From contig NZ_CP104067.1 in the NCBI RefSeq assembly GCF_026651875.1, positions 1,488,001 to 1,552,000 on the forward strand: DNA of 64,000 bases, given 5' to 3'. Below the pieces are notes generated by a model. It worked only from the letters and a program-made list of their open reading frames with translations, was not told where the DNA came from and did no database searches. Source of the DNA: Alicyclobacillus fastidiosus. Its GTDB lineage: Bacteria; Bacillota; Bacilli; Alicyclobacillales; Alicyclobacillaceae. Position numbers and translations under genes: made by a program. Shown here one piece after another: positions 51,075 through 53,396 of the stretch (the stretch's first letter is position 1; each line of letters starts with the position of its first letter).

Positions 51075-51097
51075 TCTTTATGGAATGAATTGCATAA

Positions 51098-51300
51098 TCC
51101 TCGTTAGGTGAGGCGTCTGTATAATCACATGCCATTGCCCAGAAACGTCGAAAGACGCCAATGGGTCACCAAGTCTTGTCGGACTAAGGCTTGACTTAAT
51201 ATGGCTGAGCGTTCTGCTCTACGTTATGCAGTGCTAAAGCTCAACAAGGGGGAACCTACTTTGAGTTGGAAACCTCCCTTGTGCGGAGGTTTTTTGGTTT
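51098..51300 (+). ncRNA. M-box (ykoK) Mg2+ riboswitch, copy 1, with terminator
   Basis: The aptamer matches the ykoK leader: TCGTTAGGTGAGGC (51101), TGCCATTGCCCAGAAACG with AGACGCCAATGGGTC, then GGACTAAGGCTTGACTTAA and GCTAAAGCTCAAC. After it ACAAGGG (51244-51250) can pair with CCCTTGT (51276-51282), an antiterminator, in competition with the terminator AACCTCC/GGAGGTT (51271-51277 with 51285-51291) and its T6. In this class, Mg2+ binding frees the terminator and turns the transporter off. Confidence 0.9.
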
Positions 51301-51383
51301 TTTAAGGCAAGAAGTAAATTAGGCAAATAGTAAGACACGATTGACAGTCAATTGTCATACAGTGTCTTAGCTTAAAACAAGCG

Positions 51384-51632
51384 GTCCTCGTTAGGCGAGG
51401 CTTCTATACGAATACATGCCACTGCCCGGAAACGTGGAAACACGCCAATGGGTTGAACAGGTACTGCCGGCTTAAGGCTTTACTTAACGTGGCTGGGTGG
51501 ACGCCCTCTCGGACGCCCGACGTCGTATAGTGCCAAAGCTCAACTAGGGGGATTGTGAAAACGCAGTGCGCGCAGGTTTTTTATGCATGCGTTCTTTCAC
51601 CCCCTGAGGATCGTCCCTCAGGGGGTTTTTAA
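51384..51632 (+). ncRNA. M-box (ykoK) Mg2+ riboswitch, copy 2, with terminator
   Basis: A second full aptamer: TCGTTAGGCGAGGCTTCTAT (51387), GCCACTGCCCGGAAACG, CACGCCAATGGGTTG, CCGGCTTAAGGCTTTACTTAA and GCCAAAGCTCAAC. Its expression platform is different in sequence: AGGGGG (51545) with TGAAAACGCA can pair with TGCGTTCTTTCA and CCCCCT (to 51605), opposing the terminator CCCCCTGAGG/CCTCAGGGGG (51600-51609 with 51616-51625) and T5. It is preceded by its own TTGACA (51341) lacking a good -10, a relic of duplication with the promoter. Confidence 0.9.
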
Positions 51633-51657
51633 ATTGTCCTTTAAGGAGGTGGTAGGT

Positions 51658-51855
51658 ATGGACCCGGAACCTGATAGTCGAATGTGCTTGAGTTCAAACG
51701 ATTTTTATTATGAGGTTGGCGCGGACCAATCTACTACTGACAAAGGAGGGCAATTCCCATGGGTGTTGCAATGGAAAAGAAAGCACAACATTCGGCAGTT
51801 CTTGATTCGGCTCATGTTGGGGATATCAAAGGTGCCCTCGGCACCGTTCGTCTAG
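51658..51855 (+). CDS. overlapping leader ORF (65 codons) with Asp/Glu-Pro start
   Basis: An ORF with a perfect ribosome site, TTAAGGAGGTGG at seven bases, between the second M-box terminator and the transporter. It begins MDPEPDSRMCLSS and runs 97 bases into the transporter gene in another frame. Alternating acid-proline residues right at the N-terminus are what make the MgtL leader (MEPDPTP...) of Salmonella destabilise ribosomes at low Mg2+. The rest (from residue 30) is only an out-of-frame reading of the transporter start. Whether it is a regulatory leader rather than a functional protein is inference. Confidence 0.55.
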   Translation: MDPEPDSRMCLSSNDFYYEVGADQSTTDKGGQFPWVLQWKRKHNIRQFLIRLMLGISKVPSAPFV

Positions 51856-53396
51856 ACGACAATGCGCCACGTAAGTCTTGGTGGGCACGCATTCGCACGT
51901 TACTTGCCATTATGGGACCAGGACTGATTGTCATGGTCGGAGACAACGACGCAGGCGGTGTATCCACGTATGCTCAGGCTGGGCAAAACTATGGCACAAG
52001 TCTTCTGTGGGTCTTACTTCTCTTAATTCCTGTATTAATGGTTTGTCAAGAGATGGTCGTTCGTCTCGGACTCGTCACTGGGGTCGGACACGCACGGTTG
52101 ATCTTCCAACGTTTCGGGAAGTTTTGGGGCGCGTTTTCTGTTGGGGACTTATTCATCCTAAACTTCTTAACGATCGTGACAGAATTCATTGGAATCAGCA
52201 TGGCGATGACCTATTTTGGTGTAAGCGAGTATATCTCGGTACCAGTGGCAGCACTTTTGCTGATTCTAATTACCGTAACAGGAAGTTTTCGTCGTTGGGA
52301 AAGTTCCATGTTTGTTTGCATCGTGTTGAACTTTTTGGTGATTCCGCTCGCCTTTATGAGCCACCCGCATTTCGGACCCATGGTACGTAATACCTTCGTC
52401 CCGAGTGTGCAAGGTGGACTTAATTCTAATGCACTCCTGCTGATCATCGGCTTGGTCGGTACAACGGTCGCACCATGGCAATTGTTCTTCCAACAATCGA
52501 ACGTGATCGACAAAAGGCTGACTCCGCGCTGGATGAAATATGAAAGAGCTGATACGTTTATTGGTGCATTCGTCGTCATCATTGGAGCTGCTGCCATTAT
52601 TGCTGCAACCGCCTTTGCATTCCAAGGCACAAAAGCGTTTGGCAATTTCGTGGACAGCGCAACGGTAGCAAACTTGTTCGCGCATCATGTAAGCCGAGTT
52701 GCCGGCAACGTGTTCGCCATCGTTCTCTTGAATGCTTCCATTATCGGGGCAGGTGCAGTCACCTTGTCGACTTCTTATGCCTTTGGGGATGTGTTTGGGA
52801 TCAACCATTCCCTGCATCGCAGCTTCAAAGATGCAAAAGGATTTTACATTATTTACGCTGCCATTGTACTCGTCGCCGCAGGCATTGTCCTTATCCCGAA
52901 TGCACCGCTCGGTTTAATGACAATTTTGGTGCAAGCGCTCGCCGGTGTGCTGCTCCCAAGTGCAACCGTGTTCTTGCTCATTCTTTGCAATGACAAGGCG
53001 GTGTTAGGACCGTGGGTCAACAAACCGTGGCAAAACGTCTTGGGGGCTATCATTGTCGGTGTATTGACTATGTTGTCACTCATTCTTGCGGCAACGACGT
53101 TGTTCCCAAACTGGAACGTGACGGTTCTCACTGAAATTTTAGCTGGGGTTCTGATAGTATCCCTTTTAGTAACAGGTGTATTTCAAGTGTTACGTCGGGG
53201 AAAGGCTGCTGAAAGAGATTCTGTTGAAGATCTGGATCGCTGGACTTGGCGGATGCTGCCACTAGATGATCTGCCAAAAGCCATGCCCTCTCGGGGTACC
53301 GCAATTGGCATGCTCTCACTTCGAGCATATCTAGTCATCGCCGTGGTGTTATTGGTGGTCAAGGCGATTCAGTTGGCTCTTGGACACACAGTTTGA
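51759..53396 (+). CDS. NRAMP-related magnesium transporter (NMT type)
   Basis: 545 residues, about 11 helices plus a ~45-residue N-terminal cytoplasmic tail. It has the NRAMP fold but lacks the metal-site motifs of Mn2+/Fe2+ members. Helix 1 reads GDNDAGGVST where MntH has DPGN, and helix 6 reads GTTVAPWQLFFQQSN where MntH has MPHN. These changes are those of the Mg2+-transporting NRAMP relatives of Clostridia and others, known to be M-box controlled, so Mg2+ is the likely substrate. AAAGGAGG lies nine bases before ATG 51759; an ATG at 51771 is also in frame. Confidence 0.85.
   Translation: MGVAMEKKAQHSAVLDSAHVGDIKGALGTVRLDDNAPRKSWWARIRTLLAIMGPGLIVMVGDNDAGGVSTYAQAGQNYGTSLLWVLLLLIPVLMVCQEMVVRLGLVTGVGHARLIFQRFGKFWGAFSVGDLFILNFLTIVTEFIGISMAMTYFGVSEYISVPVAALLLILITVTGSFRRWESSMFVCIVLNFLVIPLAFMSHPHFGPMVRNTFVPSVQGGLNSNALLLIIGLVGTTVAPWQLFFQQSNVIDKRLTPRWMKYERADTFIGAFVVIIGAAAIIAATAFAFQGTKAFGNFVDSATVANLFAHHVSRVAGNVFAIVLLNASIIGAGAVTLSTSYAFGDVFGINHSLHRSFKDAKGFYIIYAAIVLVAAGIVLIPNAPLGLMTILVQALAGVLLPSATVFLLILCNDKAVLGPWVNKPWQNVLGAIIVGVLTMLSLILAATTLFPNWNVTVLTEILAGVLIVSLLVTGVFQVLRRGKAAERDSVEDLDRWTWRMLPLDDLPKAMPSRGTAIGMLSLRAYLVIAVVLLVVKAIQLALGHTV

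Follow-up and report, generated by a model that had tools for sequence, protein, structure and literature searches.

A conserved leader open reading frame behind M-box riboswitches in Bacillota: a candidate ribosome-gated second switch for a putative Mg2+ transporter gene

A 65-codon open reading frame (ORF) led by a Shine-Dalgarno (SD) sequence lies between tandem M-box riboswitches and an NRAMP-family gene in the 64,000-nucleotide stretch of DNA analysed here (the window). Leaders of this type recur behind M-boxes in the same order, in the class and in the wider phylum, and the leader gene is almost certainly real. The reading tentatively put forward, at a little under even confidence, is a second switch, placed behind the M-box and gated by ribosomes, that resembles enteric MgtL and MgtQ; by analogy with these, an acid-led start may favour early ribosome loss when Mg2+ is low.

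A covariance-model search placed two M-box aptamers (RF00380) on the forward strand of the window, at 51093-51258 (146.4 bits, E 3.2e-33) and 51380-51557 (147.9 bits, E 1.3e-33), both about 100 bits above the Rfam cut-off of 44. A pattern scan located a terminator-like hairpin of the intrinsic type behind each (51268-51294 and 51599-51626); these two compare with a mean of 0.8 in shuffles of the region, and both carry T tails, the downstream terminator that marks an M-box. The leader SD AAGGAGGT follows at 51643-51650 and the leader ORF at 51658-51855, opening at ATG 51658 with M-D-P-E-P-D-S-R-M and ending at the stop codon 51853-51855. The ORF list begins this frame at an ATG at 51583, 5' of the terminator, with no SD recognized by eye. 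The transporter SD AAAGGAGGG is at 51742-51750 and the transporter ORF (545 residues) at 51759-53396, and 97 nt of the leader ORF are shared with it. An earlier note on this DNA had described the ORF between terminator and transporter, its MDPEPD opening, its perfect SD and the 97-base run past the transporter start, and the sequence and ORF list bear out this description. A short SD-led ORF before a transporter gene, the arrangement of MgtL-type leaders, is found in the window. The product of the downstream gene belongs to the Nramp family of Pfam (E 2e-77, 261.1 bits against a gathering score of 29.8). It stays below the threshold of the NCBIfam MntH subfamily model (113.6 of 430 bits) and reaches that of the general model NF037982 (60 bits, threshold 50). 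M-box control of an NRAMP gene, a feature of the NrmT branch, is present in the window, and the M-boxes suggest that this protein transports Mg2+. The two complete M-boxes stand in tandem before one gene (51093-51557), each with its own terminator-like hairpin; G211 likewise has two M-boxes, with about 100 nt between them.

The distribution of the leader was determined by M-box searches at three taxonomic levels, the labels Bacilli, Bacillota and Bacillus being assigned to the compared genomes from sequence. Within the order, 50 M-boxes were detected in 39 of 59 genomes. Inspection of the sequence or ORF list for all 50 revealed a leader behind 42, including the additional copies in G016 and G029 and a G051 leader with no transporter of the usual kind in view. 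Eight M-boxes lack a leader: the first of the tandem pair of the window, one at a contig end (G031b), two before genes of the MIKTYFY type (CorA for L080) and four before genes of the MK[IF]G[ST]TFY[LF]SR type (MgtE with a PRC domain, L078). The leader overlaps the start of the downstream gene in 39 of the 40 loci measured, the exception being G041; 39 of these loci belong to the order, and the remaining one, G091, comes from a different family in the class. A start codon is present in 39 of the 40 loci (ATG in 16, GTG in 17, TTG in 6) and the SD is kept. Outside the order, 75 M-boxes were fetched from among the matches listed, with some presumed near-duplicates and the weak tail left out. Among the matches listed, 34 of 74 other class loci have a short SD-led ORF beginning with M, V or L and then D or E as judged by eye, 3 have another short ORF and 37 have none that could be assigned by eye, including short-gap CorA loci of the MIKTYFY type (L108 is CorA). 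All 30 MgtE-type loci fetched from one Bacillus-like genus, out of 43, carry a leader starting MD[S/H]P[H/D]S, and in 27 the start of the gene could be placed. The MgtE of that genus resembles B. subtilis MgtE. M-boxes were found in 72 of 199 genomes of a phylum sample, where the 29 new loci supplied for examination show starts such as MDADPEPQ, VDADPGPQ, MESDDD, MESEEGD, MDGDPSP and MDSGPSP. Leaders range from 12 to 160 residues and precede genes of seven Pfam families (NRAMP, MgtE, CorA, P-type ATPase, MgtC, ABC permease and DUF1003). The sole relative in a scan of named genomes was L001 (Paenibacillus filicis), a piece of an NRAMP gene with a differing upstream region.

Several loci have an unusual arrangement. 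The M-box and terminator of G031 are at one contig end and the leader and NRAMP gene at another (L070, L047); a group II intron match adjoins the leader, which suggests that an intron was inserted between terminator and leader. The second NRAMP copy of G091 (L046) has a shortened transporter N-terminus that continues, in the same frame, a leader-like start, MGDGP, and no M-box was found in that stretch. The two locus copies of G029, one chromosomal and one on a small contig (L024, L052), share a leader that reads GTA where the start codon is expected, and the transporter copy on the small contig is in pieces.

The conserved part of the leader is its N-terminus, M-D-x-x-P-x-S-R-M, which codons 1-9 of the window ORF (51658-51684) match. 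Across 71 distinct leaders, Asp occupies residue 2 in 59 and Glu does so in 8, Pro stands at residue 5 in 47, Ser at residue 6 in 44 and Arg at residue 8 in 29; these residue counts are partly circular because the leaders, which also provide the codon counts below, were picked by eye. Three tests are independent of this picking: a leader profile, a pattern scan for an SD and start, and an objective rule that takes the first short ORF with a strong SD before the gene. The profile, trained on 30 distinct N-termini (29 of the order and one of G091), gave scores of 3 bits or more to 15 of 74 held-out class M-box loci; shuffles (n = 50) yielded 0.06 such loci on average and never more than 1, and the reverse strand 0. 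The objective rule, which overlooks some true starts and takes some wrong ones (L198, L208), returned an acid at residue 2 in 17/23 class ORFs versus 2/26 background ORFs, and in 10/15 ORFs of the phylum sample versus 1/43. Mean acids in residues 2-7 by the same rule were 1.00 versus 0.65 for the class and 1.60 versus 0.28 for the phylum sample. A degenerate pattern of SD, start and D-x-[G/S]-P-S, narrow enough to miss most leader variants including that of the window, matched 10 of 398 class genomes (11 rows). The match lies directly behind an M-box in nine of these and has no start codon in place in the tenth, G216; the reversed control pattern gave 3 matches in the same 398 genomes.

These comparisons separate two parts of the proposal in the earlier note that the leader is MgtL-like with a conserved acid-proline start. 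The leader ORF and the acid at residue 2 are kept among relatives, but the DPEPD string is not. Close relatives read D-x-G-P-S instead (VDAGPSHQR, VDIGPSPR, MGDGPSCRM), and DPEP directly after the start occurs, besides the window, in only three fetched loci (L014, L015 and L079, with VDPEPNCRM, VDPEPNSRM and MDPEPNGRR). On these sequences DPEPD counts as a lineage variant. The window start fits the alternating acids of the EPDP type, yet at least two acids in residues 2-7 are found in just 26 of 62 distinct N-termini and one or none in the other 36. Starts outside the class are more acidic (MDADPEP, MESDDD); those within it have M-D/E, then usually P and S. The M-box and DPEPN leader of L014 and L079 stand before a DUF1003 gene, which hints at a role in Mg2+ for that family.

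The stretch from the leader SD through the spacer and start codon to the Asp2 codon finds its complement about 80 nt away, in a segment close to the transporter SD. This long-range helix over both ribosome sites was absent from the earlier note. Arm S of the window (GGUGGUAGGU, 51648-51657), at the leader ribosome site, pairs throughout with arm S' (AUCUACUACU, 51729-51738), directly 5' of the transporter SD; the window helix is rich in G-U, and 29 of 39 swapped partners are equal or better. The mean pairing energy over 40 loci was -25.1 kcal/mol for own partners and -19.7 kcal/mol for shuffled ones (0/5000), and a good helix was absent in G054 and G091. The test was repeated with permuted partners after 18 of the 40 loci were removed as near-duplicates, and the 22 representatives, all but G091 from the order, gave -25.9 versus -19.9 kcal/mol (0/10,000). 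The corresponding values were -21.7 versus -17.0 kcal/mol (0/10,000) for 22 class loci, left from 35 after removal of 9 near-duplicates and 4 loci with a missing gene start, and -22.8 versus -15.9 kcal/mol (0/10,000) for 14 phylum loci, with L208, L210 and L217 left out. Individual pairing fails in L155 and G121a in the permuted-partner test and in L205, L209, L212 and L213 in the phylum test; L199 forms 26 pairs without a break, counting G-U.

An alignment of 22 loci was used to examine covariation. Helix cells were paired in 79.0% of cases, compared with 73.1% in shuffles and 44-54% when the helix was slid, and the covariation score was 0.293 versus 0.220 in shuffles (0/500) and at most 0.186 when slid; the structure counted is favoured in these comparisons because it was taken from one of the aligned sequences. 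Two-sided change was seen in 14 of the 24 pairs (shuffles, 9.4) and in 33 cells (shuffles, 15.7). A slide by -1 gives 13 and 32, so the two-sided counts are barely above it and weigh against the helix model. RNAalifold on a sequence-only alignment found no more than a 5-pair core. The first base of the start codon co-varies with its partner (G-C 11, A-U 4, U-A 2, U-G 2, other 3). The leader start is very probably paired. A different pairing, between CCUAGU of the leader and ACUAGG at the 3' end of the M-box, showed no covariation by eye and was dropped.

A single hairpin is predicted to cover both ribosome sites of the window (MFE -50.8, z -2.26, 5/200 shuffles as good). Its outer 5' arm, UUGUCCUUU at 51634-51642, is predicted to pair with 51745-51753 at the transporter SD. 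The in silico cost of opening that SD was 7.9 kcal/mol in free RNA and 1.9 kcal/mol with the leader site occupied, and it stayed at 7.9 kcal/mol with a modelled ribosome at about codon 6. The corresponding means over 40 loci were 7.3, 4.7 and 7.0 kcal/mol. An alternative structure that hides the transporter site and is changed by leader occupancy, as in MgtQ, was thus found in silico for the window; occupancy eases opening in 29 of the 40 loci and has the reverse effect in 10. The S' segment of several relatives also contains CCCUCC, able to pair with the transporter SD instead, and this possibly accounts for the mixed direction.

Loci with a long interval between leader and gene have another feature. 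A fold-based scan, run without a shuffle control, found that this interval holds a strong terminator-like hairpin in 10 of 15 loci with a gap of at least 190 nt and in 2 of 67 with shorter gaps; the long-gap loci include ATPases, an ABC permease and MgtC. Such second hairpins were recorded in L094, L098, L099, L106, L112, L120, L123, L090, L096 and L200, that of L106 being bulged and detected by the fold-based scan after the pattern scan had overlooked it. The 5' arm of the second hairpin in L200 is S' itself, the partner of the leader ribosome site, and an unloaded leader would therefore favour read-through there.

The proposed mechanism has two layers of control. M-boxes with terminators let transcription pass when Mg2+ is low, and the tandem M-boxes of the window would act in this way. 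The second control would reside in the transcript, where arm S, holding the leader ribosome site and start codon, would reach across about 80 nt to base-pair with S', next to the transporter SD. Unloaded window RNA would hide both ribosome sites, because the hairpin pairs the leader site and, in the window, the transporter SD. A ribosome on the leader start would break the helix and expose the transporter SD, and one that elongates would then cross the transporter SD and start within the overlapping frame. If ribosomes were lost in the first codons and the leader start were reloaded, the transporter SD would stay open. The model requires repeated loading of the leader start, because a modelled ribosome at about codon 6 leaves the SD closed. 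Also weighing against it are the reverse effect of occupancy in 10 of 40 loci, the second hairpins of long-gap loci, the G-U-rich helix of the window and the poor helices of G054 and G091, the low acid counts of most leaders and of the class sample, the GTA of the two G029 copies and the pairing role of the Pro codon in MgtQ. The acid-led start is proposed to favour early loss when Mg2+ is low, in the manner of MgtL and MgtQ, and the Mg2+ dependence through early acid residues rests on this analogy. From the anatomy of the locus, leader ribosomes likely gate the downstream gene, in a direction that differs between classes.

The conserved N-terminus could instead reflect the RNA, with the CCNAGU...CGA stretch and start region forming part of an RNA fold or of a site for a protein, while the frame would be incidental. 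The Ser6 codon is AGT in 40 of 44 leaders and AGC in none, a bias that a nascent-peptide model does not predict and that runs against a purely peptide reading. The start codon and Asp2 codon lie within the helix, and because of this position the conservation of Asp2 may come partly from pairing. Codon usage elsewhere argues for the peptide: the Asp, Gly and Pro codons vary at third positions and are fixed at the first and second, serine at position 3 is encoded by AGT, AGC, TCG, TCT or TCA, and an SD is retained with any of three start codons in nearly all loci measured. Differences between the 24 sequences of the D-x-G-P class occupy 0.331 of synonymous versus 0.037 of non-synonymous sites in codons 4-6, and 0.716 versus 0.579 in codons 7-9. 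Three leader types of Bacillus (10, 12 and 3 sequences) each show synonymous change alone in codons 1-9, and their pN/pS for the whole ORF is 0.69-0.76. By these rates the opening few codons are preserved as peptide, unlike the body, and an RNA element with an incidental frame is considered improbable. The ORF is conserved and SD-led, as would also be expected if it encoded a small protein with an action in trans on the transporter. However, comparable N-termini are shared by leaders of seven gene families and of widely differing lengths, the window ORF gave no match in Pfam or NCBIfam searches, and the weakly constrained body differs between clades. A trans-acting protein is set aside as very improbable because the leader body drifts.

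Plain translational coupling or timing is a closer competitor. The M-box alone would sense Mg2+, leader ribosomes would open the shared hairpin, and the N-terminal motif would set the speed of initiation or early elongation. Neither the hairpin over both ribosome sites nor its release when the leader is occupied calls for Mg2+ sensing, and Arg8 is encoded by CGA, which can be a slow codon, in 19 of 29 leaders. Coupling of this kind leaves aside the acid at residue 2 and the several acids outside the class, which fit the acid rule of MgtL and MgtQ, and the near restriction of one strict motif form to positions behind M-boxes. It is regarded as possible, if somewhat doubtful. The MgtL/MgtQ-like switch behind a riboswitch is the best reading of the window locus, offered as a close call and by analogy with the enteric systems.

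Extended to Bacillota at large, the same reasoning gives a plausible but more tentative proposal. The M-box may often be only half of the Mg2+ switch, and an acid-led leader with an occluded start may make the ribosome a second Mg2+ sensor, coupled to the transporter ribosome site or to a second terminator; the gene would then answer both free Mg2+ and ribosomal Mg2+ supply. If this is true, one logic, early acidic ribosome loss, would operate in enterics and in Bacillota, where it is joined to a riboswitch. Among riboswitches, the M-box of B. subtilis mgtE is a textbook case. Should the mgtE 5'UTR report the ribosome as well as free Mg2+, readings taken with it would mix two signals. According to the part of the source available, the full mgtE 5'UTR has served as a live reporter of free Mg2+, including in a ribosome variant (PMC11567004).

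The earlier note knew of no such leader behind a Bacillota M-box, and none was described in the parts of the open-access full-text literature covered. Subscription papers and preprints lie outside this literature, so the absence of a Bacillota description is not proven. The texts of PMC2965389 and PMC10219788 contained no magnesium terms, and that of PMC13009471 has leader peptides with no mgtE or riboswitch. The M-box-controlled Nramp-related Mg2+ transporters (NrmT) have an M-box before an NRAMP-family gene, as in the window, and the passages of that paper considered contain no leader ORF, "leader" appearing once in its main text, about mgtA (PMC4072509).

The window MDPEPD is the nearest look-alike of the acid-proline start of E. 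coli MgtL (Glu2 and Asp4 in EPDP), also a leader before an Mg2+ importer. In the passages available MgtL works by Rho-dependent termination, and most M-box leaders here, unlike it, carry at most one acid after residue 2 (PMC11282234). MgtQ, the intergenic ORF of Salmonella mgtC-mgtB, is, like the window leader, a short ORF with a strong SD (AGGAGG in MgtQ) before an Mg2+ transporter. As far as the passages extend, Asp2 and Glu5 of MgtQ are needed for mgtB translation, and its Pro codon acted via RNA pairing and not as a residue (PMC8092293). Its Asp2, Pro4 and Glu5, its alternative stems, which mask the ribosome site of the transporter, and the requirement of the leader start for transporter translation are counted as likenesses; in contrast, MgtQ has 8 codons and no M-box and is described from enteric bacteria, whereas the window ORF overlaps its gene and holds its own start codon inside the helix (PMC8092293). 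From the published descriptions consulted, the nearest case is the M-box uORF2/Rv1805A of Mycobacterium tuberculosis. It is called mycobacteria-specific and belongs to a translational M-box with Rho, unlike the window; the likeness, drawn from the description, lies in a conserved SD-led small ORF behind an M-box, a conserved N-terminus with proline and a proposed anti-SD pairing (PMC12810186).
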